64,000 nucleotides of DNA from Planctomycetota bacterium. Lineage in GTDB: Bacteria; Planctomycetota; Phycisphaerae; Phycisphaerales; UBA1924. Position 1 is the first letter of the stretch; the number at the start of each line of letters is the position of its first letter. The notes beneath the pieces are model-generated. The model was given only the letters and a program-made list of their open reading frames with translations. It was not told the DNA's origin and did no database searches. Position numbers and translations under genes: made by a program. Below are positions 6,385 through 56,367 of the stretch, piece after piece. The DNA lies in the NCBI GenBank assembly GCA_024276195.1, contig JAJRXR010000044.1:1-64000 (forward strand), given 5' to 3'.

Positions 6385-6530
6385 TTGAAACATCTCCATC
6401 TGTTGAGTGCTCGTACGAAACCGCACGTGTCCTCTTCGGCGTCTTGGGCACACTGCCCGCACACGCCTCTCTGCCAGCGTTCTGCGCCTGGCCCCCCGAT
6501 CTCTCACCATCTTCTCAAAAAAGATCGCGA

Positions 6531-38443: not shown

Positions 38444-39067
38444 CTACGACTCGCCCCGGGACCGGGTTCGGAGATTCCACTGACGCGCGAAAGAAGCCAC
38501 CGCCGAGTGGAGGCGGCTCTTGACCGTCCCAAGCGGGATTCCCAGGTCCTCGGCGATCTGGGCGTAGCTCAGGCGCTGGAAATACGCCAGGAGCAGAATC
38601 TCGCGCAGCGGGGGCGATAACCCGTCCAAGGCCCGCTGGACCTCCTCGTCCCGCTCGGCGTTGTCCATCGCATCCCCGGGCGCCGGGACGTCGATTTCCA
38701 TGAGATCGATGAACGAGGCGTCGCGTCCGCCGCCAGCGCCCCCGACCGGGGCGGACAGATCGACCGTCCGGCGGCGACCCTTCTTGCGCAGGTAGTCCCG
38801 CCCCTTGTTGGCGGCGATGGTAAAGAGCCAGGGCCTGAACCGGCGCGAGGTGTCGAAGGTGTCCTGTGAGATATGGACCTGCAAAAACGCGTCCTGGAAG
38901 ACGTCTTCCGCCGCGATCCGGTCGCCCAGCAGACGCGTCAGAAACCGGAGCAGGTCGTCGTGGTGGCGTTCGATGAGCGTCCGCAGCGCCTCCGCCTCGC
39001 CCGCTCGGTACCGCTCAAAGAGTTGCTCGTCTGAGATTGGGTCCACGCGGGCATCCTGGCGGGCCAT
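38444..39067 (-). CDS. ECF-type RNA polymerase sigma factor
   Basis: 207 residues from the ATG at 39067. Region 2: RFLTRLLGDRIAAEDVFQDA then RRFRPWLFTIAANKGRDYLR. Region 4: ALDGLSPPLREILLLAYFQR then LSYAQIAEDLGIPLGTVKSR. A Gly/acidic linker joins them. It should direct transcription of an envelope- or stress-related regulon and is probably controlled by the TM protein downstream. Divergent from a second ECF gene. Confidence 0.9.
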   Translation of the reverse strand: MARQDARVDPISDEQLFERYRAGEAEALRTLIERHHDDLLRFLTRLLGDRIAAEDVFQDAFLQVHISQDTFDTSRRFRPWLFTIAANKGRDYLRKKGRRRTVDLSAPVGGAGGGRDASFIDLMEIDVPAPGDAMDNAERDEEVQRALDGLSPPLREILLLAYFQRLSYAQIAEDLGIPLGTVKSRLHSAVASFARQWNLRTRSRGES

Positions 39068-39387
39068 CTGGCAGGAACCGAGAGGTCCCCTGGCAGAGCT
39101 TACGCGGGCGGCGCCGGATATCGCACGATGGTCCATCTCCCCCGAGTTCTCCCCAGCTCGCCCCTCTCAACGCCCGGGCGCCTTGCCCGGTTCGGTCGAA
39201 TCGGGCAAGGCGCCGCCTCCACCCTCACGCCAGCGGCGGACCGTCCGAGAAACCGGGGCGCCGGCGTGGGTAGGGGGGCAAGCGTGACGCCCGGGGGGGA
39301 TCTCTGTCATGATGCGGGCCAGCGCAATCGCCCGGCGGGGGTCGCCGGGGGTGCAATGCCGAGCCCGGTCGGGCGTTGAGCACCGGG
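39068..39387. other. Shared intergenic region between two divergent ECF sigma genes
   Basis: 320 bp without a credible gene. It contains the perfect 13 bp inverted repeat at 39177-39214 and a GC-rich stretch with an imperfect repeat (GCCCGGCGGGGGTCGCCGGGG near 39329-39350). The autoregulated promoters of both sigma systems are expected here, but I cannot assign -35/-10 boxes. Confidence 0.5.
39177..39214. promoter_or_regulatory. Perfect 13 bp inverted repeat between two sigma genes
   Basis: GGCGCCTTGCCCG and CGGGCAAGGCGCC separated by 12 bp. No T tract on either side, so an operator or RNA hairpin is likelier than a terminator. Confidence 0.5.
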
Positions 39388-39996
39388 ATGAGACCCGCAT
39401 TACGGATGGACCCGGAGCCGCCCGAGCACCCGGAGGACGAGCTCTCGGCCCTGATCCGGGGCGCGGGCGATGGTGACGAGCGCTCGTGGGAGCGTCTGGT
39501 TGATCTGTACGCACGCCGGATTTTCGCGTTGGCTCGGAGCCGGCGCCTGAGCCCGGAAATGTCCGAGGAGATTTCGCAGTCCGTGTTTGTCACCCTGGCG
39601 ACCAAGCTGAGCACCGGTGAGTACGACGAGCGGGGGCGGTTCGAGCCTTGGCTCTTCCGCGTCGCGATGAACCGGATCCGCGACGAGGCCCGCCGACAGA
39701 AACGCCACGCGACGCCCAGCGACCCGGTCTGGTTTGAGGGCGCCCGGACCCCGCCCCCTGCCGCCGAGGCGGACGCCTCGACCGACGCCCTCCGCGATGC
39801 GGTCGGGCAGCTCAACGATTCGGACCGAGAGATCATCGAACTGCGCCACCACGGGCAGATGAGCTTCAAGCAGATCGCCGAGATGCTGGGCGAGCCGGTC
39901 GGCACGCTCCTGGCAAGGCACCACCGGGCGCTCAAGAAACTGCGCTCCATGCTCGAGACCCCCCCGCAAGACCAGCGAAAGGCGGACGCGTCATGA
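39388..39996 (+). CDS. ECF-type RNA polymerase sigma factor (second system)
   Basis: 202 residues from the ATG at 39388 (a later Met at 39409 is possible). Region 2: ARSRRLSPEMSEEISQSVFV then GRFEPWLFRVAMNRIRDEAR. Region 4: QLNDSDREIIELRHHGQ then MSFKQIAEMLGEPVGTLLAR. It overlaps its putative anti-sigma gene by 4 bp (ATGA), indicating translational coupling. Confidence 0.9.
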   Translation: MRPALRMDPEPPEHPEDELSALIRGAGDGDERSWERLVDLYARRIFALARSRRLSPEMSEEISQSVFVTLATKLSTGEYDERGRFEPWLFRVAMNRIRDEARRQKRHATPSDPVWFEGARTPPPAAEADASTDALRDAVGQLNDSDREIIELRHHGQMSFKQIAEMLGEPVGTLLARHHRALKKLRSMLETPPQDQRKADAS

Positions 39997-41927: not shown

Positions 41928-42809
41928 CTAGGGAGCGTCCTCGCCCTCGGGGCAGATCACCCAGCGGTCGTCGCGCCAGCAGGCCCGGGCCGGGTCGATC
42001 GCGTAGTACGGCGCGACCTCGCGCGGGTCGGCCTCACGCAATGGATCACCCCGCCCCATCGCAAGCTGGGCCGACCACGAGTTGGCGCTGACACCCAGCA
42101 GCGCCGCCTCGACACGCAGATGCTCGAGCAGCCCGGCCCGGTCATGCACCGGACCCGGGTTCCCCGAGCATGTCGCGCACAGTCGGACCGCCCCGGGGCG
42201 GTCCGGGTCGGGCACAAACCGGTCGCCGCGGCACTCGGGGCAGGGCCAGCGCCTCGCCTCAGAGTCGAGATGCGCGATCCAGGCGTCCGGGGCGTGGGCC
42301 TCGATCGCGCGCCGGATCTCGGGGCGCTCGAGCGCACGCCGGGCGATGCGCCCATCGCCCGCGCGCACGCGCGTCAGCGCGGCGCTCGCGTCCAGCCCGG
42401 CCTTGCTTGGGACGGCGGCTCGCTCATCGCTCTGCGCCTCGACCCGATCGTCGGCGTTGCGCGCCAGCGCGATCAACCAACGGCGCTCGCGCTCGGTCTC
42501 GGCGATCTCAGCCAACGCCAGGCAGGCGCCGCCCGCGATCGCCCGGTCGCCCGCGTCGAGCCCCGATGTCAGCGCAAGCACATACAAGCGCCTCGCCAGC
42601 CCGATCGCCTCGTCCGTGCTCGCGCCCGCAGCGACCTCCTCGCCAAGCTCGAGGTACAGCGCCGGGGACTCGGGCGAGAGCAACGCAAGCCGCTCTGCGA
42701 GCCGGTCAATACGCGCCTCGCCCGCGGGCGCATCGCCGTCGTCCTGCTGCGCCGCAGCGAAAGCGCCCGTGAACAGAGCAATCAACACACAGAGCCACCT
42801 GCGCCTCAT
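41928..42809 (-). CDS. Secreted protein with CxxCxG zinc-finger-like motif; last gene of ExbB/ExbD operon
   Basis: 293 residues with a signal peptide (LCVLIALFTGAFAAAQ). The middle is helical and repeat-like. Near residue 200 there is CPECRGDRFVPDPDRPG then LCATCSGNPG, a pair of CxxCxG motifs of the DnaJ central zinc-finger type, which may bind zinc or act as a thiol site in the periplasm. No family recognised. Starts within the stop of the upstream gene (ATGA, 4 bp). Confidence 0.65.
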   Translation of the reverse strand: MRRRWLCVLIALFTGAFAAAQQDDGDAPAGEARIDRLAERLALLSPESPALYLELGEEVAAGASTDEAIGLARRLYVLALTSGLDAGDRAIAGGACLALAEIAETERERRWLIALARNADDRVEAQSDERAAVPSKAGLDASAALTRVRAGDGRIARRALERPEIRRAIEAHAPDAWIAHLDSEARRWPCPECRGDRFVPDPDRPGAVRLCATCSGNPGPVHDRAGLLEHLRVEAALLGVSANSWSAQLAMGRGDPLREADPREVAPYYAIDPARACWRDDRWVICPEGEDAP

Positions 42810-45607
42810 GGCGACACCCCCTCGCGGATCAGCCAGAGCCTCGCGATCGCGAGCTCGGTCGTGGAAACCTGGTCGAGCACGTGCGTCGCCTCGCGCAGCT
42901 CGCGCGCAAGATCGCTCAGCACGCCGTTGATCTCGCCCGAGATCCCGCCCCGCTCACCAGCGACAAGCAGCGCCAGCGACTCGCACAGCGCGATCTGCTC
43001 GCTGAGGAAGCGGTGGATGGGTGTCTCGCTCAGCGCGAGCCTTGAACGCCGGCGGCGCTCGATCTCTGGCGGGTCGATCCCCAGCCCGGGCGCCCCGCCC
43101 AGGCGGCTCGCCTCGCGCCGGTAGCGCAGCGCCAGCGTCCGGGCGGAATCGGTCAGGGGGTTCTGGGCATGCCCGGAATCCTCGGAAACTACGTCGCCGA
43201 GCGCCATCGCGTAGGCGTTCTCAAGCTCGGCGCTGAGTGTGTCAACATCGCCGTCGGCGCCCTCGCGCGCGACGACCTCGATCAGCGTTTCGAGCAGAGC
43301 TCGCCGGGCCTCGACGCGCCACGACCCATCCCCGGCGCCCGTGTCGATCGGGCGCGTTGTCATCAACTCCACCAGCCCGATGACCTGCGCCGAACGCGGC
43401 AGGTCATCGACACGCTCGAGCATCGCGTTAACCATCGCGGGCGAGGCGACAAACCTCGCCGCCACCAGCTGCGCCCGCTCGCGCACGCTTCTGGGCGTCC
43501 CGCGCAGCGCCAGCGAGAGCAACACCTCGGCGTCCACTGGCCCGATCCGCGACGACATCCGCTTGCCCAGGCGGTCCAGGGCTCTGAGGCGATCCTCGGG
43601 TGAATCGCCCGAGTTTTCCAGTCGCACCGCCCAGCTCCCGTCGCCGGGCGCATCGAACGGATCCGCGCTGGGCGTCGCGCCCCGGTCAAGCCCGAACGCC
43701 GTCGCCAGCCCCAACGCCCGGCTCGCATCCTCGAACCGCTCATCGCGCGCCAGCGCAGCCCCGGCGTTGGCGTACGCCAGACGCACCGCAGGAGCCAATC
43801 GCGCCGCGGGGTTCGGCGCGATCGAACGCTCGCGGATCGCCGCCCGGACAACCTCGCCCAACGCCTGCGAGAACGAGTCCGCCCGTTCATCGCGCCCGAG
43901 CCCCCACGCCTCGGTCAGACGCTCGCTCAGCGCGGCCCGCTCGCGCCCGGTCGCGTTGGGTGAGAGCGTCATCGTGGCGTCGAGCCCGCTCGCCCCGGAC
44001 TCGCTCACGACCGCCTCAACCAGCCCCGCGAGCGCAGCCTGATCCACGCCCCTCCGCCCCAGCACCATCACAAGCCAGCGGCGCGCCCCGGCGTTCTGGC
44101 GCCAGCTCATCGCCAGCGCGATCTCGCGGATCGCGCCCCCCTGCCTGCTCACGCCCATCTGCGCCGGCGCCAGCAGAGATTCGAGCGCCCCGGAGAGCAG
44201 GTCTGTCCGCAGCGCCTCGTCCTCGCGAGAGACCGCATCCACCGTCTCGATCCAACGCTGCCATGTGCGAAGCGAAGCCCCGTCGGCGGAGAGGCGGTCG
44301 CCGATGACCCGCACACCGATCGCGGCGCCAACACGAAAGCCCGAGCCCCGCGCCCCGTCGGGTGTGATGCGCCGGCGCAGGCGGTCGATCTGCCCCCGCA
44401 TCGAGGCGCCCAGAACCGGGTTGCGCTGGATCTGCGCGAGCATGCCCGCCGACCAGACCCCGCTCCACACCTCGTCGCCTTCGACCGGCGTCCCGGGTTC
44501 GCCCAGCGAGACCACGCCCGCGCCCACCGCGTCGAGCGCCAGGCGCGACACGTCCGGACGCACCAACGACTCCAGGAACACCTCCACAGAATCGTTGGCC
44601 AGCTCCAGCTCCTCGGGGCTGAACCCCGCCCAGCTCCCCGAGAGCAGGCGCACCGCCTGGGCAAAGCGGCGCGTTGATTCGTACGGCGTCAGCTCGAGCC
44701 CGCGGCGCGCCCCCTCGAGCTCGTGCACCACCAACGCCGGATCGCCCAGCGCATCGGGTTCTGGCAGGCGGCGCTGGCTCGCCGGCGTCCGCCCCGGTCG
44801 GTTCGCCTCACGTCTCACCCGCGCAGGTTCGGGCGGCGCACCGGTCGCGCCGTCATGCTGCGCAACACGCCCAGATTCGGCCCGATCGACCGCCATGATC
44901 GCGTACACACCCCCGAAAAGCACGACGAGCGTGGTGACCGCGACCGCCGCGACAATCAACGCCACCTTGAGCAGCCGCTGGGCTGGGTCGATCTGCTCCG
45001 GGAGCGGGTCAAGCAGCGACACCTGCGGGGGCGGCGCCCCGAACACCGGCGCCAATGGCGCCTTGGCGCCTGTTGACGCCGGAATAGCAACCCTTGCTCC
45101 CTGCATCGGGCGGCGCTGGCGCCCGATCCGGCGCAGCGTCTGCGCAACGTCCTGCGAGCTGAGCCCGCGCGCGTGCGCAATCGAGGCGATGCGCCGAAGC
45201 GACTTTCGGTTCCACCCGCCGAACATCGCCAGCGCGAGGATCGCGTCCTGCTCGAGCGGGTTCACGCGAGAGCCCGGCGGGCGCGCAGGCTGCGCAGCGC
45301 CGCTCTGTACACCGGCGGGGGGTCCGCCCCAGCTCTCGGCGAGCTGGGCGCGAATCACCGGGTTGAGCAGCTGCGCCGCCGCGGCGTACAGCGACAACCG
45401 CACCTCGTCCGCCTCGGGCGTCTCGGCGAGGCGATGAACATCGATCTCACGCATCCGCTGGTCGCGCGCCCTGAGAATTTGCTCATCATCAAGCGCCCCG
45501 GCGCGGAGCCCCAGCAACGCGAACGGCCCCCCTCGCGCCGCCTCGGCGCCGAGGAACATCGCCGTCGGCGACTCACGACCTCCCGCTCCCCCTTCGGCGC
45601 CGCTCAT
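42806..45607 (-). CDS. Large TM protein with DnaJ-like N-terminus
   Basis: 933 residues. Residues about 27-95 resemble a J-domain-like helical module (FALLGLRAGALDDEQILRAR, then LYAAAAQLLNPVIRAQLAES), but without HPD. A second helical region (about 115-160) precedes a single TM helix (VALIVAAVAVTTLVVLFGGV, about 220). The remaining ~680 residues would be periplasmic and form all-helical repeats. Overlaps both neighbours by 4 bp. Probably a structural subunit bridging cytoplasm and periplasm in the same complex; function unknown. Confidence 0.65.
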   Translation of the reverse strand: MSGAEGGAGGRESPTAMFLGAEAARGGPFALLGLRAGALDDEQILRARDQRMREIDVHRLAETPEADEVRLSLYAAAAQLLNPVIRAQLAESWGGPPAGVQSGAAQPARPPGSRVNPLEQDAILALAMFGGWNRKSLRRIASIAHARGLSSQDVAQTLRRIGRQRRPMQGARVAIPASTGAKAPLAPVFGAPPPQVSLLDPLPEQIDPAQRLLKVALIVAAVAVTTLVVLFGGVYAIMAVDRAESGRVAQHDGATGAPPEPARVRREANRPGRTPASQRRLPEPDALGDPALVVHELEGARRGLELTPYESTRRFAQAVRLLSGSWAGFSPEELELANDSVEVFLESLVRPDVSRLALDAVGAGVVSLGEPGTPVEGDEVWSGVWSAGMLAQIQRNPVLGASMRGQIDRLRRRITPDGARGSGFRVGAAIGVRVIGDRLSADGASLRTWQRWIETVDAVSREDEALRTDLLSGALESLLAPAQMGVSRQGGAIREIALAMSWRQNAGARRWLVMVLGRRGVDQAALAGLVEAVVSESGASGLDATMTLSPNATGRERAALSERLTEAWGLGRDERADSFSQALGEVVRAAIRERSIAPNPAARLAPAVRLAYANAGAALARDERFEDASRALGLATAFGLDRGATPSADPFDAPGDGSWAVRLENSGDSPEDRLRALDRLGKRMSSRIGPVDAEVLLSLALRGTPRSVRERAQLVAARFVASPAMVNAMLERVDDLPRSAQVIGLVELMTTRPIDTGAGDGSWRVEARRALLETLIEVVAREGADGDVDTLSAELENAYAMALGDVVSEDSGHAQNPLTDSARTLALRYRREASRLGGAPGLGIDPPEIERRRRSRLALSETPIHRFLSEQIALCESLALLVAGERGGISGEINGVLSDLARELREATHVLDQVSTTELAIARLWLIREGVSP

Positions 45608-48264
45608 CCGCCACTCCCTGCGGGCGCAAGCAGGATCTGCGCCTCAAGCTCTCGCATGCGTTGATCCCAGGGCGGCGGCGCCGTCCCGGGGTGCAACACG
45701 CGGTACTGCTTCATCGAGCCGCGCGCTCTGTCGGGATCGATCAGGAGCATCAGGCGGATCGAGTGGTACCGCGCTTCGTACCACTCGACATCGTTCTCGG
45801 GCACGCCGCCCATGAGCTGGAGCCATGCATCGAGCGCCCGCTCGGTTTGCCCGCCCTGCTCGGCGATCTGGGCGATGCGCCGGAGCAGGCCCGCGGTCTG
45901 GCGCCCGCTGTCGAGCACGCGCTGATCGAGGGAGAGCGCCAGCTCACCCATGGCCGGGTCGCCCTCGTCGCGCGCCAGATACGCCGCAGCGTCCGCGACG
46001 CGGTCGAGCACGCCGAGCGTCGCCGCGTTTTCCAGGGCCGGGTCCTGGGCGATGAGCGTCTCGGCAACGCGCGAGCCGTGTCGCACCAGCTCGCGCGCCT
46101 CCTCGGCCTTGCGAGGCGGCGCCGCCCACGCCAGCAGGGCGCGCCGGTACATCACCCGATCCGCCGCGTCGGCGTATCGCCCCCCGGCAAGGCGCAGCTC
46201 ACCCAGCAGACGATCAACATCCGACTCGCTCTCCTTCCGCAACGCGATCTGCAGGCGCCGGAACATCAGCTCTTCGCTGATCGAGCTCAGGTCCATCTTC
46301 CGAGCCTCGGCGACCCTCCCCAACGCTCTCAACGCGTCGTCGGCGAGCCGAACATCCAGACGCTCGACCCCAAGCACGACATCAAGAACCTGGCGAACAC
46401 GCACCAGCAGCGTCTGCGGCGCCCGCTCGCTCGCGGGCGATTCCGGATCAAGCGCCGCCCGCTCATCGCTCTCGATCAGCGGGATGGCGAGAGACACAAA
46501 CCGCGCCCCCGCCTCTTCGTGCGACTCGCTCGGAGCCGACCGATAGAGCCGATAAAGAAGTCGCGCCAGGTGACGCCTGGCCGCGTCCGCGTACGGCGCG
46601 TCGGGCGGGACACTCGAAAGAATCTCCGCCGCGCGTTCGTCGTCCACCAGATCCGCGTTGGCAAGGCGCATCACGAGCAGGGCCGCACGGCTTGAACGCG
46701 GATTCACACGCAGGTACTCGCCCGCAGCCGCATCGCGCGCCTCGCGCAGAGACTCATCCCCACCCTCCACACCCGTGTCCAACGCCACGACGCGCATCCA
46801 CTCCGCCTCGTCGCGGACACTGGCCACTTCGGACTCGCTCGCCCGGGCCAGCTCCTGCGCAGCGAGCGCCAGCTCACCGCTATAAAACAAGCTCAAACCG
46901 AGGCGCAGGCGGCACTCGTCCCGCTGCGCCGGGTACCGGCGCGCTTCATCGCTCTCGAGCGCTTGCGTCAGGGTCTCGCTGGCCTCCGCGTAGGCGAACC
47001 GGGTCTCGACGTCTTCCGCCGGGCGAGAATCATCCCGCCCCATCGCCCCGTGCCGCTCCCGCGCGTCGCGGTACTGGCGCAGGCCCCGTGCATACTGAAA
47101 GATAAACCCGTCATCGCCGATCGGCAAGTTCTCGTACCGCGTCGCCAGGTCCAGCACATGCGCCACCGATCCCTGCACTGAAAGATCCCCGAGCGCGATC
47201 AGTGCCAACGACTCGGCGCTGTTCACGTCCGAGCGCGAGAGCTGCTCATCGCGCAGCGCATCGAGCGTGAGCACAGCCAGCAAACGCGCCTCGCCCTCGG
47301 GCAGGGGCGTGAACTGGCTCCCGGCCCGCCGCCGGCGCCCGATCAGATCCGAGAGCTCCGCCCACGCCGAGGCCTTGGCAAAAACAACCATCGTCGCCGC
47401 GCGAAGCTGATCGACCGCCTCCGGCGCCAGCTCCTGGGCCTCGCCGAGCGCTTCGACCCAGCGGATCGCCTGGCCGTGGCGCTCTTCAAGCGAAAGACAC
47501 AATGCAACACCGATCGCCGAACGCGAAACATGCTCGAACCGGAGCAGACGCATGGGCAGACGCTCGAGCGTCGGGCGCTGCTCGGTCGAGTCGAGCAGGA
47601 ACCCGAAGTTTTTGATCGCCCTGGAGATGCCCGAAGTGTCGCCGGCCAAGAAGGCGCCGTAGTACCCGGCCCAGCCCGCGTAATACCGGCTCAGCGACCG
47701 GATGCGGCGCGCCTCGCCCAGACGCTCTTGCGCTTCGCGCCGCACGGATTCGCTGGCCGCTCGCTCGCGGCGCTCGAAGACCGCGATCTCGCGCTCGCTG
47801 GTCTGGGCGATGTCCATCAGCGAGTCGCGCACGCCGTCGAGTGTCCGGATCGCACGGGCGATCTCCTGCTCGGTCGCCAGCGACAGCCTCGCCCGCTCGG
47901 CGATCTGCTCGCTCGGGAGGTACAGCGCGATCGCCAGGCTGACTCGAAGGTCGAACAACCGCCCAGCCGGCATCGCGTCGAGCAGCGCCCGGCTCCTCGC
48001 CTCAATCGCCTCTCGCTGCTCGTCCGTCGTCGCCCCGGCGAGCTGGCGCGTGTACAGCCTCGCCAGACGCTCGGCGACCCGGACGCGCTCCTCCTCGCCC
48101 GCGCGCGACATGCGCTCGCGTAGCTGCACCCCGAGCAGATCATCGAGCGCCAACCGCTCAAGAAACTGCGCCACACGCTCATCAGGCGACGACGCCTCTT
48201 GCGCGCGCGCAGCACCCGCGAGCACCAGCACAATCGCAAAAATCTCAGTCAGACGCCGGGACAT
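45604..48264 (-). CDS. Large periplasmic helical-repeat (TPR-like) protein
   Basis: 886 residues from the ATG at 48264, chosen for the signal peptide (LTEIFAIVLVLAGAARA). The open frame extends upstream into exbD. It is entirely helical with TPR-like pairs, for example LRLGLSLFYSGELALAAQEL and AARRHLARLLYRLYRSAP. No enzymatic motif seen. It overlaps the preceding exbD by 20 bp and the next gene by 4 bp. Likely a periplasmic scaffold of the ExbB/ExbD-driven machine. Confidence 0.68.
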   Translation of the reverse strand: MSRRLTEIFAIVLVLAGAARAQEASSPDERVAQFLERLALDDLLGVQLRERMSRAGEEERVRVAERLARLYTRQLAGATTDEQREAIEARSRALLDAMPAGRLFDLRVSLAIALYLPSEQIAERARLSLATEQEIARAIRTLDGVRDSLMDIAQTSEREIAVFERRERAASESVRREAQERLGEARRIRSLSRYYAGWAGYYGAFLAGDTSGISRAIKNFGFLLDSTEQRPTLERLPMRLLRFEHVSRSAIGVALCLSLEERHGQAIRWVEALGEAQELAPEAVDQLRAATMVVFAKASAWAELSDLIGRRRRAGSQFTPLPEGEARLLAVLTLDALRDEQLSRSDVNSAESLALIALGDLSVQGSVAHVLDLATRYENLPIGDDGFIFQYARGLRQYRDARERHGAMGRDDSRPAEDVETRFAYAEASETLTQALESDEARRYPAQRDECRLRLGLSLFYSGELALAAQELARASESEVASVRDEAEWMRVVALDTGVEGGDESLREARDAAAGEYLRVNPRSSRAALLVMRLANADLVDDERAAEILSSVPPDAPYADAARRHLARLLYRLYRSAPSESHEEAGARFVSLAIPLIESDERAALDPESPASERAPQTLLVRVRQVLDVVLGVERLDVRLADDALRALGRVAEARKMDLSSISEELMFRRLQIALRKESESDVDRLLGELRLAGGRYADAADRVMYRRALLAWAAPPRKAEEARELVRHGSRVAETLIAQDPALENAATLGVLDRVADAAAYLARDEGDPAMGELALSLDQRVLDSGRQTAGLLRRIAQIAEQGGQTERALDAWLQLMGGVPENDVEWYEARYHSIRLMLLIDPDRARGSMKQYRVLHPGTAPPPWDQRMRELEAQILLAPAGSGG

Positions 48265-48667
48265 AGCTCCTCTTCTCAAAGCCCGCGTCGTACGCCGCCT
48301 GCATCGCCCGCGCCGCCGCCGCCACCGGCACCTCGCCCGCAACCCGGACCGCGACCCCGGCCTCTCGCGGGAGCTGGCGCAGGATCGCTGTCAGCTCCTG
48401 GACGCTTGTCGTCGTCCGCTGCCCAACCCGGAAGACCACGGCGGCTCCCAGACGTTCTACATGCACGACCTGCGGCTGCAGGTCGCTCGCGCTGGCGCCG
48501 CTCCCTTCCGCCTGCAGCGTGGAGTCGATCCGCCCTTCCTCGGGCGCGAAGCTCGACGTGACAAGAAAGAAAATCAGCAGCAGAAACACGACATCGATCA
48601 TGCTCGTCATGGGCAGCGCCCGGAGGCGCCCGCCGCGGTGTCGCTCTGAGAGGGGCGTCAGGTTCAT
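48245..48667 (-). CDS. ExbD/TolR-family protein (second copy)
   Basis: 140 residues from the ATG at 48667. A short cytoplasmic N-terminus leads to the TM helix with the conserved acidic residue, MTSMIDVVFLLLIFFLVTSS, where the Asp is the proton-path residue of ExbD/TolR. The periplasmic domain follows (VVFRVGQRTTTSVQELTAIL). It overlaps the first exbD by 4 bp. Two different ExbD chains could form a heteromeric inner rod with ExbB. Confidence 0.88.
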   Translation of the reverse strand: MNLTPLSERHRGGRLRALPMTSMIDVVFLLLIFFLVTSSFAPEEGRIDSTLQAEGSGASASDLQPQVVHVERLGAAVVFRVGQRTTTSVQELTAILRQLPREAGVAVRVAGEVPVAAAARAMQAAYDAGFEKRSYVPASD

Positions 48668-49098
48668 GGCTCCCCCCCCACCAACGCCGGGTCCATCGTC
48701 CCGATGCTCCACCGGCGCACGCCCGCGCGGGCCAGGCGGTTCATCAGCCGGTTCAAGTGAGCAGCGCGGCACTCGCGATCTGGGCGGACCCGGATCGTCA
48801 CCAGATCCGGGTCGCCGGCACGTTCGATCTCCATCGCCGCCAGCTGCGCGAGCCCCTCAAGCGTGATCGGCTCGCGATCGAGCAGGATCACGCCCTCGCG
48901 CGTCAGGTCGATCGCCAGCGTCGCCTTGGACGCCTGCTCCTCCTGGCCCGCCTCACGCGGCAGGTCCACCTCGGTGCGCGCCAGCTCTCCGAACTGCGAC
49001 GTGAACATGAAAAAGATGATGAGTTGCAGCACCACGTCGATCATCGGTGTGAGATCGAACTCGCGGATGCGGTCCTCGTGTGGGCGGGTGAACCTCAC
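48664..49098 (-). CDS. ExbD/TolR-family protein (first copy)
   Basis: 144 residues from GTG 49098, overlapping the exbB stop (GTGA). TM helix with the conserved Asp: DLTPMIDVVLQLIIFFMFTS. The periplasmic domain includes VDLPREAG and VTIRVRPDRECRAAHLNRLM. An ExbB/ExbD pair uses proton flow to power envelope processes. No TonB gene is in the window. Confidence 0.9.
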   Translation of the reverse strand: MRFTRPHEDRIREFDLTPMIDVVLQLIIFFMFTSQFGELARTEVDLPREAGQEEQASKATLAIDLTREGVILLDREPITLEGLAQLAAMEIERAGDPDLVTIRVRPDRECRAAHLNRLMNRLARAGVRRWSIGTMDPALVGGEP

Positions 49099-49853
49099 GC
49101 CTGGGGTGCTCCTGCGGGCGGCGGCGGGCGCACCGGGCGCGGCGCCGGCGGCGGGCCAGCCTGAGCCCCGCCAGATTCGAGGTAGGCCGCGAGCTCTTCG
49201 ATGGTCTCGCCGACCTCGCTCGTGAGCGTGTCGATCCTGTTTCGCAGGTAGGTGAACGCGGCGGTACACGGGATCGCGACGATCAGCCCGAGCACCGTGG
49301 TGACGAGCGCCTGCGAGATGCTCCCGCCGAGCTGGTCCGGGCGGGCCGGGCCTTCGGTCAGGGCGATGGTGTCGAAGGCGCTGACCATGCCGACGACGGT
49401 CCCGAGCAGCCCGAGCATGGGCGCGACCGAGGCGATGAGCCCGATGCCGTCGGTCATCCGGTACAGCCTTGCCACCTGCGCCTGCCCGACCTCTTCGAGG
49501 GCGCTCTTGAGCTCGAGAAACCCGAACGGCGAGCGCGAGCACCGGATCAACGCCGAGCCGAGCACGCGCGTGAGGAACGAGTCGTTCTCGACATCCGTGC
49601 AGAACTCGATCGCCGCCCCGACCTGATTGGCGCGCAGCAGCTCGTGCAGACGCTCGACCGTTTCGGGCGGCGCCAGGCGGCTCCGGCGCAGACGCAGCAG
49701 CTGCGCCACGATCATGCCCACCGCCGCCAGCGACAGCAGGATGATGACCAGCCCGACCTCTCGCCCCGCGGCGATGTACTCGAGCAATGACTTCGACGCC
49801 CCGTCCGACGCCTGCGCCAGAACCAGCGTGGATAGATCCCCTGGGCTCATCAT
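49095..49853 (-). CDS. ExbB/TolQ/MotA-family proton channel protein
   Basis: 252 residues from the ATG at 49853 (first of two adjacent ATG codons; overlaps the upstream stop as ATGATGA). Three TM helices: VGLVIILLSLAAVGMIVAQL, IASVAPMLGLLGTVVGMVSA and ALVTTVLGLIVAIPCTAAFT. The second and third carry the family GLLGTVxG and small-residue patterns. The tail is Pro-rich. It forms the pentameric stator with ExbD. Confidence 0.92.
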   Translation of the reverse strand: MMSPGDLSTLVLAQASDGASKSLLEYIAAGREVGLVIILLSLAAVGMIVAQLLRLRRSRLAPPETVERLHELLRANQVGAAIEFCTDVENDSFLTRVLGSALIRCSRSPFGFLELKSALEEVGQAQVARLYRMTDGIGLIASVAPMLGLLGTVVGMVSAFDTIALTEGPARPDQLGGSISQALVTTVLGLIVAIPCTAAFTYLRNRIDTLTSEVGETIEELAAYLESGGAQAGPPPAPRPVRPPPPAGAPQA

Positions 49854-51100
49854 GAGCGTCCGTTCCCTTCCGGCGCCGACCGTCCGTCGGCGCCCGTGCT
49901 GTTGTCTGTTGATTCGCCCCACGAAGCACCCGTCAAAGCACCCGCCCCGCGCCCCCAGTCGCGGATCGCGTCCCACCGGGCGCCCTCGCTGTCCGGGAAA
50001 CGTTCGAGCAGCTCGCGCCGGAGCGAGCCCGCGGCTTCGCCCTCGCCGAGAGATCGCATCGTCACCGCCGCCTCGGCCAGCGCCACCGATGCCAGCCCGG
50101 GGGCGGCCCGCTCGAACCTCGCCGGGACGTGCAGAAGCTGGATCACGCCCCGCCCGCGGATCTCCGGGTTGTCGTCAAGGATCATCGACCGCCCGAGCGC
50201 CGTGCGGATCCAGGCCTCGTGCCACACCGACGGTCGTTTGCGCAGTCGCGCCCGCAGCGCGGTTTGCGCCGAGGCCCGCTGCTCAGCCCCGCCCACACGC
50301 GAGAGCACGATCTCGAGCACAAGCGAGACCCCCGCCTCGCTCAGCGTGTCCGGGTCGATCTGCTCGTACATCGCCTCGATCTCGCGCCGGATCGCCTCGC
50401 CATCGCCCGGGTCGCTCTCGTAGAGCGCACTCACGCGGTACAGCGTGCTCAGCGCAACCTGGCGCATCCGCCCCGCCCCGGGTCGGGCGCCGGTCTCCGG
50501 CGCCTGCGCAACCGCGTGGCGCACCAGCCATGCGCTCTGCTCGTTGTCGAGCCAGATCGGCGCGAGCGATGGCGCCAAGCCCGTCGCCGGGTCGATCAGC
50601 GTGCTCGGATCGTCCGATGCGTCGCCCCCCGGCGCCCACCGCTCCGCCCCGAGCACACCGAGCCACGGCGCGATCGCCGGCGCCCGAGCCCCGCCTGCCA
50701 GGCGGGCGCGCATCAACCCCCGCGCCACGAATGACGACGCCGCCCCTTGCTCAAATCTTGTCCGGGCGAACAGGTCTTCGAGCAGCGGCTCGGCGTTGAC
50801 CAGATCCCCGCGCTCAAGACGGACGCTCGCCCGCCAGATGGCCCTAGCGTCGTCGCGGAACGCCGCAAACTCCTGGCCCCGGGCGCCGCTGACATCGCGC
50901 ACCTGCGTCCAGTCCAGCAGCGTGATCGTCCCATCGCCCAGCATGACGCTCACGCCCTGGAGATCAACCGACGTCACCGTGCCCTGCGGCGGGTCCTGCC
51001 CGTCCCACATCTCCAGGACCTGCGACGCCGGCTGCGCCAGCGCGGGCGCACACACGCCCAGCGCTACTCCGAGCCCGATCCATCCGCGCAGGCGCCTCAC
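49850..51100 (-). CDS. Secreted protein of unknown function in ExbB/ExbD operon
   Basis: 416 residues with a signal peptide (WIGLGVALGVCAPALAQ). A short beta-rich N-domain (VTSVDLQGVSVMLGDGTITL) precedes a long helical region with repeat character. No motif or family recognised. Overlaps the VWA gene and exbB by 4 bp each, so it is translated in fixed coupling with them and is probably a periplasmic subunit. Confidence 0.65.
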   Translation of the reverse strand: MRRLRGWIGLGVALGVCAPALAQPASQVLEMWDGQDPPQGTVTSVDLQGVSVMLGDGTITLLDWTQVRDVSGARGQEFAAFRDDARAIWRASVRLERGDLVNAEPLLEDLFARTRFEQGAASSFVARGLMRARLAGGARAPAIAPWLGVLGAERWAPGGDASDDPSTLIDPATGLAPSLAPIWLDNEQSAWLVRHAVAQAPETGARPGAGRMRQVALSTLYRVSALYESDPGDGEAIRREIEAMYEQIDPDTLSEAGVSLVLEIVLSRVGGAEQRASAQTALRARLRKRPSVWHEAWIRTALGRSMILDDNPEIRGRGVIQLLHVPARFERAAPGLASVALAEAAVTMRSLGEGEAAGSLRRELLERFPDSEGARWDAIRDWGRGAGALTGASWGESTDNSTGADGRSAPEGNGRS

Positions 51101-52173
51101 GGGCGTTTCCCTTCCACACGCGCAAAGCTCCCGCCCGAATCCGAGGCGATCTTGCGCATCATCCGCTCCACGTCGTCGCGGTCCGAGCTGCTGGAGAACT
51201 CGCCGAACATGATGCAGTGGATCGGGATCCGGGACCGCCGGTTGAGCTGCTCAATGCTCTCGGGCACGCTGGCCGGGAAATCCCCGTCGGTCATGAAGTA
51301 GATCGCGTCCGGCGGCGGGCGGAGCTTGAATACCAGTTCAAACCCGCTCATCGGGAGGGTCCAGCCTGCTGCCTTCACACTGTACAGCTCCCGCCTGGCC
51401 CAGAGCTTTTTCCGCTCCGTCGCGTCGGACCAGAGGCGGCGCGACCCGAGCGGCGTCGCACGGTCCGAGTAGAACACCACAAAGAACTCTGCGCTCTCGA
51501 GCAGCGCGTCGATCGAGCGGCCCAGCTCGCGCTGGGTCAGCTCCATGCGGGTGCGCCCGCTGGGCGTGTCGATTTTCATCGAGGCCGAGCGGTCCACGAT
51601 GTACGCGAATCGCCGCCCCTGGGCCTCGAGCCCGAAGAAGCTCGCCCCCGAGCCGGACCCGGCCGCGCCCGATCCGCTCGACGCGGCGCCGAAGCTCGAC
51701 GACCCGGTCACATCCCCCGATCCGAGCGCCGTATCGATCTGTGTCAGCTCGGGCGTGATCGCCTCGGCGCCCGCCGCGTCGGTCATCAGCTCTACCGGCG
51801 CGACATCCGCCGCCGATATCTCGGGCGCCGCGGGCGAATCCATCTCCAGCGCGTTCTGCTGCAGCGCCGCCAGCTCTGCGCTGGTCATCATCGCGAAGTC
51901 CACCGTGCCCGGGGCCGATCCCCCGGCGTCGGGCGTCGTGAAGCTCACCGTCCACACCGCCGCGATGAGCCACAGCACCAGATGGACCGCCAGCGACGCC
52001 CCGGCACCGACGAGCGTCGCCCGGCGCAGCAGGCGCCATGTCCCGCCATGGCTGGGCTTGGGCCTGGGCGCCGGCCCGGATTCCCCGACTTCCCAACCGA
52101 TATCAGCTGGGGCCTGGGCTGGGGCCTGGGGCGAGACATGGGCGCCGGCTGGCTGTGGGTGGGTGTCGCTCAC
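51097..52173 (-). CDS. TM-anchored von Willebrand factor A protein, first gene of ExbB/ExbD operon
   Basis: 358 residues from GTG 52173; the upstream open frame is antisense to pyrH. A cytoplasmic Pro-rich N-terminus, one TM helix (LAVHLVLWLIAAVWTVSFTT) and a Ser/Gly linker lead to a VWA domain. The MIDAS is DRSAS in AYIVDRSASMK, with the distal Asp in AIYFMTDGDFP and Thr in AAGWTLPMSG. VWA domains bind partner proteins through a metal ion. The gene heads an eight-gene overlapping cascade, suggesting it regulates or assembles the ExbB/ExbD complex. Confidence 0.85.
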   Translation of the reverse strand: MSDTHPQPAGAHVSPQAPAQAPADIGWEVGESGPAPRPKPSHGGTWRLLRRATLVGAGASLAVHLVLWLIAAVWTVSFTTPDAGGSAPGTVDFAMMTSAELAALQQNALEMDSPAAPEISAADVAPVELMTDAAGAEAITPELTQIDTALGSGDVTGSSSFGAASSGSGAAGSGSGASFFGLEAQGRRFAYIVDRSASMKIDTPSGRTRMELTQRELGRSIDALLESAEFFVVFYSDRATPLGSRRLWSDATERKKLWARRELYSVKAAGWTLPMSGFELVFKLRPPPDAIYFMTDGDFPASVPESIEQLNRRSRIPIHCIMFGEFSSSSDRDDVERMMRKIASDSGGSFARVEGKRP

Positions 52174-52450
52174 ACCTGCATCGTACAAACGGGCGGCCCC
52201 CTCGGATGGTCTTGTCACATTGGCCCGCTGGGCGGGCGATCGGTCGGGCGGAGGGCTCCTCGCCCTCACGCCCCCCCAGATCCTGCTGTTCTGTTCGCAA
52301 GGGGGGCTCGGGAGGTTCGCCCGAGTCTGCGGGGCGGAATCATGACCCGAGAGCGGCGGACGCACTTGATCCCTGTGCGGGGTGTCCGTTGAATGCCCAA
52401 GCGGGAGCCGCAGGCTCCGAGGACGATGCACGTCTCTGGGGGCTTCTCCG

Positions 52451-53236
52451 ATGCCGACCGACCAGGCCACCGCACGCAAGACCGACACCGACCGCCCCTG
52501 GAGCCCGGGGCGCCCGCCCTCGCGGGTGCTGCTCAAGCTCTCGGGCGAGGCCTTCTGCCCGGCGGGCGGCTTCGGGATCGACACGGGCGAGCTGAGCCTG
52601 ATCGCTGAGGAGGTCCGCGAGGCGACCAAGGCGGGGGCGCAGATCGCCGTGGTCGTGGGCGGGGGGAACATCATCCGCGGCGCCGAGCTGGCCAAGACCG
52701 ACGGGTTCCAGCAGGCGACCGCCGATTACATGGGCATGCTCGGCACCGTCATCAACGCGCTGGCCCTGCGCGAGCGCCTGCAGGCGTGCGGGGTGGACTC
52801 GCGGGTGCAGTCGGCCATCGAGATCCGCGCCGTCGCCGAGCCGTTCATCCGCGGGCGCGCCCTGCGCCACCTCGAAAAAGGTCGCGTCGTGATCCTCGCA
52901 GCGGGCACGGGCAACCCGTTCTTTACGACCGACACCTGCGCTGCGCTGCGGGCGACGGAGCTCGAGTGTGACATCCTGCTCAAGGCGACCAAGGTCGATG
53001 GTGTCTACACCGCCGACCCGAAGAAGGACCCGAGCGCCACGCGGTTCGACCGCCTGACCTTCACCGAGGCGCTCCAGCGCCGCCTCCAGATCATGGACAT
53101 GACCGCCCTGGCGATGTGCCAGGAGAACCACATCCCGGTGCTGGTGTTCGACTTCAAGCAGCCCGGCGCCATCCGGGCCGTAATCGAGGGTAAGCCCATC
53201 GGTACCCTGCTGACCTGCGCCGAGCCCGACACCTAA
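52451..53236 (+). CDS. pyrH: UMP kinase
   Basis: 261 residues from the ATG at 52451. Amino-acid-kinase fold: RVLLKLSGEAFCPAGGFGID, then VVVGGGNIIRGAELAK, ADYMGMLGTVINALALRERL, GTGNPFFTTDT and LLKATKVDGVYTADPKKDPS. Phosphorylates UMP to UDP in the cytoplasm. A 20-residue N-terminal extension is present. Followed by frr after 65 bp, the standard pyrH-frr order; tsf is not upstream. Confidence 0.97.
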   Translation: MPTDQATARKTDTDRPWSPGRPPSRVLLKLSGEAFCPAGGFGIDTGELSLIAEEVREATKAGAQIAVVVGGGNIIRGAELAKTDGFQQATADYMGMLGTVINALALRERLQACGVDSRVQSAIEIRAVAEPFIRGRALRHLEKGRVVILAAGTGNPFFTTDTCAALRATELECDILLKATKVDGVYTADPKKDPSATRFDRLTFTEALQRRLQIMDMTALAMCQENHIPVLVFDFKQPGAIRAVIEGKPIGTLLTCAEPDT

Positions 53237-53301: not shown

Positions 53302-53874
53302 ATGAGCACCGATCCCGACACCATCCTGCTTGAGGCCGAGGAGGCCATGAGCAAGGCCGTTGAATATCTCAAAAGCGAGATGCGCGGCATCCGCACGGGG
53401 CGCGCCTCGACCTCGCTCGTCGACTACATCAAGGTCGATTACTACGGGTCCCCGACCGACCTCAAGGCCCTGGCCGCGATCTCGATCCCCGAGCCCAGCC
53501 AGATCCTCATCAAGCCGTTCGACGCCACCTCGCTCGGCGCCATCCGCACCGCGATCGAGTCCTCCGACCTCGGGCTCAACCCGAACGTCGAGGACAAGAC
53601 CATCCGAATCAACGTCCCCACGCTCAGCCAGGACCGGCGCAAGACCCTCGTCGCCCAGGCCAAGAAGCACGGCGAAGAGCAGAAGATCGTCGTGCGCAAC
53701 ACCCGGCGTGACGCCAACAAGCACGCCGACTCGCTCGCCAAGCAGGCCGGGACGCACCACTCCGAGGACGACATCAAAACCCTCAAAGAGGAGATCCAGG
53801 ATCTCGTCAAAAAGTACGAGGGTCAGATCCAGGAGCTCATGGACGCCAAGGCCAAAGAGGTCATGGAGGTCTGA
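53302..53874 (+). CDS. frr: Ribosome recycling factor
   Basis: 190 residues, standard length. Hallmarks are LKSEMRGIRTGRASTSLVDY, VDYYGSPTDLKALAAISIPE and a C-terminal KKYEGQIQELMDAKAKEVME. AGAGGAC precedes the ATG. With EF-G it splits post-termination ribosomes. Convergent with the small zincin 18 bp away. Confidence 0.97.
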   Translation: MSTDPDTILLEAEEAMSKAVEYLKSEMRGIRTGRASTSLVDYIKVDYYGSPTDLKALAAISIPEPSQILIKPFDATSLGAIRTAIESSDLGLNPNVEDKTIRINVPTLSQDRRKTLVAQAKKHGEEQKIVVRNTRRDANKHADSLAKQAGTHHSEDDIKTLKEEIQDLVKKYEGQIQELMDAKAKEVMEV

Positions 53875-54294: not shown

Positions 54295-55265
54295 CGCTTC
54301 GCCCCGCGCTTGATCGGTGTCTCATCAAGAATGTCGGCGATCCCGATCCCCGGGCGCGCCAGGGTCGGACGCAGACGCAGGCAGTCGATCACGATCCCGA
54401 CGAGCCCGATCGTCACCAGCACCGATCCGACCGCGACGAGCACAATCTCGCCCGTGTGCAGCGCCTGCCCCACCGGCCCGCGCACCTCGGGCGTGAGCAG
54501 GCGCAGCAGATCGCCCGCCGCCGCGATCCCGACCGCCCCGAGCAGCGCCAGCAGCGACTGCCGATCAACCTTCCCCGTGCGCACAACCACCGAACGCATC
54601 GCCAGCGCCCGCGCCGTTGGGCGCAGTCCCAGAATGACCAGCGCCAGCATCGCCCCGATCCCAAGGCGTACAAGCACGCGCACCCCGTCCTGCCCGCCAG
54701 CGCCAAAGACCGGCAGCGCACGCCCCGAATCGACCCGCATGAACAGATACCACAGCAGAAGCGCAAGAGGGATATACGCGAGCACCCCGCCGATCGCGCG
54801 CACCTGGCGCCCCCTGCCCAGCGCGGGGTAGGGGCGAATCAAGACCATCGCGCCCAGCCCGGAGACGAGCGTCATCCCGACAACCAGGCGCCCCATCCAC
54901 GCCGGACTCCAGCTCACATCCAGCCACGAAAGGCTCAGCTCGCTCAGACGGATCACCCATGACCCGAGCGCCGCGAGCAGCGCCGCGATCGACCAGACCA
55001 CGAGCCCCCACGCCGTCAGGCGCGGGCGCGTGAGCACCTTCAGCTCGCCCGCCTTCGGATCAACCAGCGCCAGGATCGTCGCGCGAACCGGAGCCCGGCA
55101 CTCCGGACACAGCTCCCGGATCGACAGCCCCCGCAGGTTGTACCCGCAGCGCACGCAGGGCAGATCGCCCGTCAGCTCGGACGCGAGCACGCTCGTCCAG
55201 GCTCGGGGGGCATTGCCCGACTGCTCAGGTTCTTGCTGTCCCGGTTCCACGCAGTTCCCCGACAT
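54291..55265 (-). CDS. Membrane protein with N-terminal zinc ribbon, unknown function
   Basis: 324 residues from the ATG at 55265 (an in-frame start at 55322 is possible but would add a 19-residue non-conserved stretch). A zinc ribbon near residue 36 reads CVRCGYNLRGLSIRELCPEC. Then about seven TM helices, including LVVWSIAALLAALGSWVIRL and MLALVILGLRP. The CxxCxYxLRG...CPEC ribbon recurs in the gene at 56612, there at the C-terminus. Function unknown. Confidence 0.7.
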   Translation of the reverse strand: MSGNCVEPGQQEPEQSGNAPRAWTSVLASELTGDLPCVRCGYNLRGLSIRELCPECRAPVRATILALVDPKAGELKVLTRPRLTAWGLVVWSIAALLAALGSWVIRLSELSLSWLDVSWSPAWMGRLVVGMTLVSGLGAMVLIRPYPALGRGRQVRAIGGVLAYIPLALLLWYLFMRVDSGRALPVFGAGGQDGVRVLVRLGIGAMLALVILGLRPTARALAMRSVVVRTGKVDRQSLLALLGAVGIAAAGDLLRLLTPEVRGPVGQALHTGEIVLVAVGSVLVTIGLVGIVIDCLRLRPTLARPGIGIADILDETPIKRGAKR

Positions 55266-55437
55266 CCGATCGACCCATCGCGGGGCGACGCCCGCGACGC
55301 CCATCGTACTCGATCCGCCCACGCTCCCCCCTCAAGCCCAGCGCCCGCCAGCGCCCGATCCGTATACTCGCCCCGCAACCACCGCCAGGACGCAACCCGA
55401 ACCGCGACGGGGCGTACCGACCCCCAGCAGGGACGCC

Positions 55438-56367
55438 ATGCAAGAACTTATCGAACGACTCCGCTCGAACATCACGCAGGTCTTTCTCGGCAACCCGAAC
55501 GCTGTGGACCGCCTGATCTGCTGCCTGCTCGCCCGCGGGCACGCCCTGATCGAGGACGTCCCGGGCGTCGGCAAAACCGTCCTCGCCTCGGCCATCGCCA
55601 AGAGCGTCGATTGCCGTTTCACCCGCGTCCAGCTCACCCCCGACATGCTCCCGGCCGACATCCTGGGCGTCACGGTCTATGACCGCGAATCCGGGAAGTT
55701 CGAGTTCAAGCGCGGCCCGATCTTCACCAACATCCTCCTCGCCGACGAGATCAACCGCGCCACCCCGCGCACACAGACGGCCCTGCTCGAAGCCATGAAC
55801 GAGTCACGCATCTCGATCGACGGCGAGGTCTACCCCCTCGGTCCTCCGTTCATGGTCCTGGCGACGCAGAACCCGTACGAGTTTGAAGGGACCTACCTCC
55901 TGCCCGAGAACCAGCTCGACCGGTTCTTGATGCGCATCGCCCTGGGGTACCCGCCGCCCGAGGAAGAGTCGAGGCTGCTCGAGATCCGCCCGGCCCAGAA
56001 CCGCTTGGGCACGCTCAAAGCGGTGCTCCACGCCGACGAGGTGATCATGCTGCAGAACGCGGTGGACGGGGTTCGCCTGGATGAATCGCTGCGCACATAC
56101 ATTGTTGATCTGGCGCGGGCCACGCGTGAGCACCCGGAGGTGCAGGTCGGGTTGTCGCCGCGCGGCTCGCTCGCGCTGGCGCAGGCCGCCCGCGCGACCG
56201 CCATCATGGACGCGCGTGACTATGTCATTCCCGAGGACATCCTCGATTCGATCCTGCCCGTCTGTGCGCACCGGATCATCGCCCGCGCCTACAGCGCCGG
56301 CGCCGAGGGCGAGGCGATGGGCGAGATTCTCGACGCCGTCGTCCAGTCGCTCACCAGCCCCGCCTGA
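55438..56367 (+). CDS. MoxR-family AAA+ ATPase
   Basis: 309 residues from the ATG at 55438. Walker A in EDVPGVGKTVLASAIAK, Walker B in ILLADEINRATPRTQTAL, sensor 1 in MVLATQNPYEFEGTYLLPEN and arginine-finger region QLDRFLMRI. MoxR ATPases act as chaperones for VWA-domain partners. The usual DUF58/VWA genes are not beside it; a VWA protein is encoded about 3 kb away in the ExbB/ExbD operon. Confidence 0.93.
   Translation: MQELIERLRSNITQVFLGNPNAVDRLICCLLARGHALIEDVPGVGKTVLASAIAKSVDCRFTRVQLTPDMLPADILGVTVYDRESGKFEFKRGPIFTNILLADEINRATPRTQTALLEAMNESRISIDGEVYPLGPPFMVLATQNPYEFEGTYLLPENQLDRFLMRIALGYPPPEEESRLLEIRPAQNRLGTLKAVLHADEVIMLQNAVDGVRLDESLRTYIVDLARATREHPEVQVGLSPRGSLALAQAARATAIMDARDYVIPEDILDSILPVCAHRIIARAYSAGAEGEAMGEILDAVVQSLTSPA

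Follow-up and report, generated by a model that had tools for sequence, protein, structure and literature searches.

The 64,000-nucleotide stretch of DNA analysed here (the window), from a Planctomycetota bacterium of the order Phycisphaerales, carries an operon of eight genes that we call VWA, SEC, ExbB, ExbD1, ExbD2, HEL, DNAJ and CXXC. We propose, with a probability of about 0.7, that these genes encode a trans-envelope, force-transducing complex driven by the proton motive force, in which the VWA protein would be the transducer. Complex formation, docking, direction of force, ligand and physiological role are what we infer from the gene set and its order, the SxxxH motif of the VWA protein, its metal ion-dependent adhesion site (MIDAS), the conserved motor residues and the departures of the motor genes from the operon. 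A housekeeping machine is favoured, with division, surface motility and uptake as candidate functions, and if it is one that pulls, it bears on how inner and outer membranes are coupled in Planctomycetota. An earlier, sequence-only reading of the window had presented the complex as a candidate for a new one. A conserved complex is indeed supported by gene order, but the general class was already predicted in 2025 (Williams-Jones et al., PMC12204202; statements on this and the other papers cited refer to excerpts of their text). What may be undescribed is the larger, eight-gene version with its repeated motor departure.

Gene order and distribution of the operon

The eight genes are all open, lie collinearly on the minus strand, span positions 41928-52173 and overlap successively by 4, 4, 4, 4, 20, 4 and 4 bp, as the sequence-only reading had stated. 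We compared them with the best 80 of 187 confirmed loci (the named loci), a set that favours close relatives. At the intact named loci, an in-frame start overlapping the preceding stop by 4 bp exists for VWA/SEC in 50/58, SEC/ExbB in 34/58, ExbB/ExbD1 in 42/58, ExbD1/ExbD2 in 45/58, HEL/DNAJ in 49/56 and DNAJ/CXXC in 45/50 cases; these counts concern only the existence of such a start, whose chance occurrence beside a TGA is not rare. An in-frame HEL start overlaps ExbD2 by 4 to 26 bp in 57/58. Start codons of relative loci were picked near the expected 4-bp overlap, which biases their spacings towards -4.

A set of 41 relative loci was drawn up without L036 (an own-contig stretch lacking the operon) and genome G019 (operon split over contigs). 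The ExbB-ExbD1-ExbD2 trio lies between SEC and HEL in 32 of them, SEC adjoins HEL with no trio in five, and contig ends cut the remaining four, in two of which the ExbDs are still visible. In L074, CXXC went undetected; L057 is a truncated locus. Identity of HEL to the window protein falls to 27% across loci where the order recurs. Such an order, kept in dozens of genomes at this divergence, is beyond chance, and it supports an envelope complex powered by ExbB/ExbD and provided with large scaffolds in the periplasm.

HEL was found in 43 of the 61 genomes searched. It is present in 34/37 genomes of the window's family (the three genomes without a match are 60, 81 and 86% complete), and elsewhere in 6/6 of family f4, 1/1 of f3, 2/6 of f2, 0/6 of f5 and 0/5 of f6. 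Its near-universality in the window's family suggests a housekeeping envelope role. Across 294 genomes of the phylum, the only full-length strong matches of the HEL profile outside the order were in G178 (1.4e-85) and G260 (2.5e-76), which belong to another class and have all eight genes in unchanged order. At E <= 1e-3 the profile lists 73/294 genomes, mostly through short matches that were not counted as orthologues. Among 20 regions fetched from this listing for gene content, two (L128, L129) have all eight genes. Partial sets are found in L135 (VWA, a 1.1-kb gap, the trio, HEL-like), L137 (VWA-trio-HEL-like with a weak CXXC), L134 (trio-HEL-like), L146 (VWA, a 0.7-kb gap, the trio), L143 (the trio alone) and L141 (ExbB and ExbD1). 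A HEL-like gene stands alone in five (L130, L131, L133, L139, L145), and no operon gene was found at the threshold used in seven (L132, L136, L138, L140, L142, L144, L147). A full operon also occurs in L152, whose contig bears the title Cyanobacteria bacterium CYA N2_1 and which groups in the HEL tree with the Phycisphaerales metagenome-assembled genome L153; this assembly is probably misnamed or contaminated.

The motor, the VWA protein and the periplasmic proteins

The ExbB, ExbD and ExbD assignments of the sequence-only reading are clear by Pfam (PF01618, 1.6e-26; PF02472, 6e-23 and 4.6e-16). Searches with NCBIfam matched only these motor families, and the window VWA, SEC, HEL, DNAJ and CXXC proteins gave no Pfam match above the curated cut-off. 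Across 31 aligned ExbB sequences (of 33 on hand, L066 and L073 being omitted), 31 columns are invariant, including T152 and T186. The aspartate in the transmembrane (TM) helix is invariant in ExbD1 (D21) and ExbD2 (D25), each in 20/20 aligned sequences taken from the 35 on hand; this is the ExbD/TolR residue that marks the motors of Ton and Tol-Pal.

The VWA protein begins with a short N-terminal end, cytoplasmic by eye, followed by a single TM helix with S60 and H64. In 38 aligned sequences these two residues (SxxxH) are the only invariant TM columns (38/38), the next being A71 (31/38). The pair, with this spacing, forms the core of the motor-docking signature of TonB and TolA. SxxxH is found in 77 of the 78 VWA proteins of the named loci with a complete N-terminal end (those of L212 and L225 lack theirs), L180 having Thr for Ser, and in 5/5 more distant motor-linked VWA proteins. 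A VWA paralogue of the same genome (L292, C81:36000-52000; 5884-8901, an open frame of 1006 residues) has a hydrophobic stretch without SxxxH, and the operon motor profiles had no match in the 16 kb fetched around it; it is the one paralogue examined, C26, C82 and C88 being further VWA-like matches of this genome. Behind the helix, about 100 residues of low complexity and poor conservation lead to an FFG motif. The VWA fold itself is recognised with the orthologues (VWA_3 matches 33/38 members and VWA_2 31/38; PDB 4fx5, E 1e-12), which confirms the earlier assignment, and the MIDAS residues D194, S196, S198, T272 and D296 are all invariant. From these features we predict a role as TonB-like transducer for the VWA protein, whose TM helix is of the TonB/TolA type. 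The VWA proteins of L128 (5172-6284) and L129 (5309-6346), out of class, have a zinc-ribbon-like N-terminal end before the TM helix, with two CxxC by eye, that the window protein lacks.

The other four proteins would be periplasmic for the most part. SEC has a small beta domain at 28-71 (SH3-like by eye) with TPR-like helices behind it, and the C-terminal end of HEL is TPR-like when orthologues are included. DNAJ has a long helix, 208-241, containing the TM segment (by eye), and an all-alpha periplasmic domain weakly resembling ARM/HEAT repeats. The DnaJ-like label that it received earlier is weak: the five PDB matches listed for its N-terminal end are all J-domains, and the helix pattern fits by eye, but their E values are poor (0.043 to 1.3), Pfam J-domain models at E <= 0.1 match 0/39 members, and the HPD triplet occurs in 1/29 aligned N-terminal ends (L046; the alignment omits the short frames L070 and L072 and the truncated L057), its His being kept in at least 90%. 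A J-like reading of this 933-aa protein is thus a weak one. The four cysteines of CXXC (C190, C193, C211, C214) are each retained in at least 90% of 40 sequences; family f2 members L076 and L077 have the gene, with most of the conserved cysteines gone.

In the arrangement that we propose, ExbB and the ExbD1/ExbD2 pair would form the inner-membrane motor, on which the VWA protein would dock through its SxxxH helix in the fashion of TonB and TolA, carrying force across the periplasm. The MIDAS-bearing VWA domain would stand in for the C-terminal domain of TonB and may grip a protein ligand in a metal-dependent way, with the outer membrane and the TPR scaffold as the two candidate sites. SEC (beta and TPR), the giant TPR protein HEL and the membrane-anchored DNAJ solenoid would organise the periplasmic assembly, which CXXC may help to fold or stabilise.

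Departure of the motor trio from the operon

The trio is in place at 63 of the 80 named loci, ten have VWA-SEC-HEL without it, and seven are undecidable. These ten, three of them shared with the five motorless relative loci above, make up 12 motorless genomes together with G018 and G033. A HEL tree of 74 proteins was built by a quick method, with midpoint rooting and no bootstrap, and leaves out frames below 700 aa such as that of L190. Six changes are needed to account for its 11 motorless rows, and six are also forced by the well-supported branches. This quick tree would imply at least six departures of the trio from the operon. The joint is precise: the SEC stop and an in-frame HEL start overlap by exactly 4 bp at 10/10 named motorless loci, and the spacings at the other two are -4 (L055) and +2 (L050). 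Translational coupling, from which a fixed stoichiometry had been deduced, does not tie the motor to the rest, the trio being repeatedly found out of the operon.

The profile of the operon ExbB finds an operon-type copy elsewhere in five of the 12 genomes, at 259-282 bits (intact controls: 344 and 383). ExbB, ExbD1 and ExbD2 stay together in all five relocated copies. With antisense frames inside the trio disregarded, comparison of these five loci showed no further conserved neighbour in common, the sequence of one of them stopping shortly behind the trio. The only relocated ExbB that was treed, that of G015, falls within the operon ExbB clade (L228 and L246, whose matches were too short, are omitted from the 39 rows). 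According to the HEL tree, the trio was kept elsewhere in four of the six departures (L225; L192; L209 with L217; L175) and not in two (L200 with L215; L201, L202, L050 and L055). Insertion of the trio, instead of its loss, is disfavoured, because f2, f3, f4 and both out-of-class operons have it, a polarity that depends on the midpoint-rooted quick tree. Excision by a recombination event joining the start regions of ExbB and HEL is poorly supported: the Shine-Dalgarno-like purine run is unevenly spread, occurring at 10/10 motorless junctions, 47/63 SEC/ExbB junctions and 17/62 HEL starts (script-picked) of intact loci.

Several observations weigh against the proposed transducer complex. Operon-type ExbB was not found in seven of the 12 motorless genomes, where nothing exceeds 141 bits, so the rest of the complex may run on a different motor or on none. 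Taken by itself, the VWA profile matches 274/294 genomes of the phylum, and a lone VWA protein is therefore no mark of the system. Of the SHLS signature, only Ser and His are clearly conserved: among the 38 sequences, the position +7 from His, where we expect Leu by assuming the spacing of TonB, is most often A (31), that at +11, expected to be the second Ser, is most often V (10), and L is found at +5 in 19. By Pfam, 0/8 operon proteins match an outer-membrane family. Lastly, no phenotype is known for this system, and PMC12204202 states the same of the vWA class.

The missing trios can be read in another way, with a periplasmic core of VWA, SEC, HEL, DNAJ and CXXC to which the trio is an exchangeable accessory; deprived of it, VWA would be unpowered or would borrow a paralogous ExbB-ExbD-ExbD set. 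We hold this to be possible, at odds somewhat below even. In addition to the departures themselves, ExbB paralogues are found in 7/7 of the genomes without an operon-type trio, with two ExbDs beside one of them in 6/7. The window's own genome has such a second ExbB-ExbD-ExbD trio (C39:52000-69000, L230; 7314-9771), behind a TsaE/YacG-like gene, and the ExbBs of G018, G007, G033 and G022 are orthologues of this C39 copy in the ExbB tree; the TsaE gene adjoins the C39 ExbB and likewise those of G018 and G033. SxxxH is retained in 11/11 motorless VWA proteins with a complete N-terminal end, which favours a borrowed motor over none and suggests that a motor, relocated or borrowed, continues to power the transducer. 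On the other side, the trio is usually kept (in the operon at 63 of 73 decidable named loci, elsewhere in five of the 12 motorless genomes), and completeness, 92-98% in four of the seven genomes without it, is unknown for three. We still prefer the proposed complex. A tentative account of its history, to which we would give about one chance in three, keeps scaffold and VWA transducer fixed while the native trio is repeatedly cut at the SEC-HEL joint, moved, or lost with a paralogous trio driving instead. If true, this would amount to a natural swapping of engines in a core trans-envelope nanomachine of the Phycisphaerales that is driven by protons. The motorless lineages are in any case ready-made tests of a TonB-like helix with a non-cognate motor and of the role of VWA without its own.

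TsaE adjoins the ExbB-ExbD-ExbD trio in L235 and L241 too. L230 also holds, ahead of NAD synthase, two open frames (742 and 410 aa) that match nothing in Pfam.

Known systems and genomic setting

The operon shares with Ton (ExbB-ExbD-TonB) the motor families and the SxxxH of the transducer helix, whereas it lacks the TonB C-terminal domain and has two unlike ExbDs and TPR and solenoid partners. The sequence-only reading had excluded TonB. This holds for the C-terminal domain, with 0 matches of PF03544 in the window's genome (the search was positive in three of 14 controls: E. coli, Caulobacter and Bacteroides), but not for the TM helix, since a TonB-type one sits on the VWA protein itself; this comes close to the fused TonB/Tol partner that had been named as a refuting case. 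The VWA protein could accordingly be imagined as an energiser of outer-membrane uptake, its VWA domain substituting for the TonB C-terminal domain. The TM helix is consistent with this, and so is the distribution of TonB_C: at best two weak matches in 23 genomes of the window's family (G008, 21.9 bits, below the 24.6 cut-off; G022, 24.1 bits, or 24.7 with neighbours, counted as over), versus clear ones (E 1e-15 to 1e-25) in 9/14 genomes of other families. However, family f4 has true TonB domains alongside this system, which makes a simple replacement of TonB not general, and none of the eight proteins is a receptor by Pfam, TonB-dependent receptors not having been searched genome-wide. We regard uptake as improbable. 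In Rhodopirellula, exbB and exbD are induced at high salinity (PMC2754498).

With Tol-Pal, the system has in common the motor families and a TPR protein resembling YbgF/CpoB in fold. It might be its counterpart, pulling on an OmpA-like or other outer-membrane anchor and holding or constricting the envelope at division. OmpA-domain proteins occur in 37/37 genomes searched, the genes of the window's genome lying outside the operon. Pfam finds neither a TolB-like nor a Pal-like protein in the operon (TolB was not searched genome-wide), a difference from Tol-Pal, and the absence of HEL from f5 and f6 means that the system is not essential across the order. We consider a Tol-Pal counterpart unlikely, if the least so of the specific functions considered.

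The Myxococcus Agl motor has one TolQ-like and two TolR-like genes (aglR, aglQ, aglS), with TPR proteins encoded in separate clusters (PMC3169522). The window system shows the same motor make-up and TPR partners, and likewise has motor clusters apart from other parts. A machine for surface motility or adhesion, in which the VWA domain would be the contact that moves, would agree with this, as with the gliding suggested for vWA transducers in PMC12204202. Near-universality in the window's family argues instead for housekeeping, and we consider motility about as improbable as uptake.

The closest match is the class of vWA force transducers predicted in PMC12204202 beside TolQ-like, two unlike TolR-like and TPR genes. 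It has a disordered or proline-rich linker (domain II, about 100 residues) and a C-terminal vWA fold; the paper describes the SHLS motif, found in many members, along with its role, and names Planctomycetes. In the models, the conserved His mediates docking of the vWA TM helix at the motor's side. The window protein resembles this class in its Ser/His TM helix, C-terminal VWA domain and adjoining TolQ-like, two TolR-like and TPR genes, and has its low-complexity stretch of about 100 residues where the class has the linker. It differs in having VWA as the first gene of the operon and HEL, DNAJ and CXXC behind the motor. In the text excerpts of the literature searched, which exclude figures and supplements, we found neither these three as partners, nor the eight-gene version, nor the motor departure. 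The operon supplies this predicted, uncharacterised class of proton-driven transducers with a set of defined and deeply conserved parts, in bacteria whose cell biology is unusual.

The coordinates are collected in Table 1.

Table 1. Operon genes and neighbouring genes in the window.
Feature	Position	Strand	Description
VWA	51097..52173	-	358 aa, predicted TonB-like transducer: TM helix, linker, VWA domain
SEC	49850..51100	-	416 aa, secreted (signal peptide by eye)
ExbB/TolQ-type motor subunit	49095..49853	-	252 aa, Pfam PF01618
ExbD1	48664..49098	-	144 aa, Pfam PF02472
ExbD2	48245..48667	-	140 aa, Pfam PF02472; distinct from ExbD1
HEL	45604..48264	-	886 aa, TPR-type, secreted (by eye); 20 bp overlap with ExbD2
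DNAJ	42806..45607	-	933 aa, N-terminal domain weakly J-like; TM segment (by eye); all-alpha domain in the periplasm
CXXC	41928..42809	-	293 aa, secreted (by eye), two CxxC pairs
pyrH (AA_kinase)	52382..53236	+	divergent conserved neighbour, outside the system
frr	53302-53874	+	neighbour beyond pyrH
MoxR-type AAA ATPase	55030..56367	+	PF07726, 1.8e-59; neighbour only

Bat (aerotolerance) and MoxR-VWA systems have VWA-TM and TPR proteins. The window resembles them in these and in its nearby MoxR gene, and differs in having ExbB/ExbD in the operon and MoxR outside it. The MoxR gene, placed 3 kb away by the sequence-only reading and called the usual partner of VWA proteins, is real, but it is divergent and lies beyond pyrH and frr. 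In the 46 loci with enough upstream sequence, MoxR lies within 8 kb in only 21, frr in 39 and pyrH in 38, the last an undercount that misses loci whose stop-to-stop VWA frame enters pyrH. We therefore rejected a Bat-like reading. Downstream of the operon stands a divergent pair of sigma-70-family genes, 38444-39136 (-) and 39376-39996 (+), one of which also matches the extracytoplasmic function (ECF) model.
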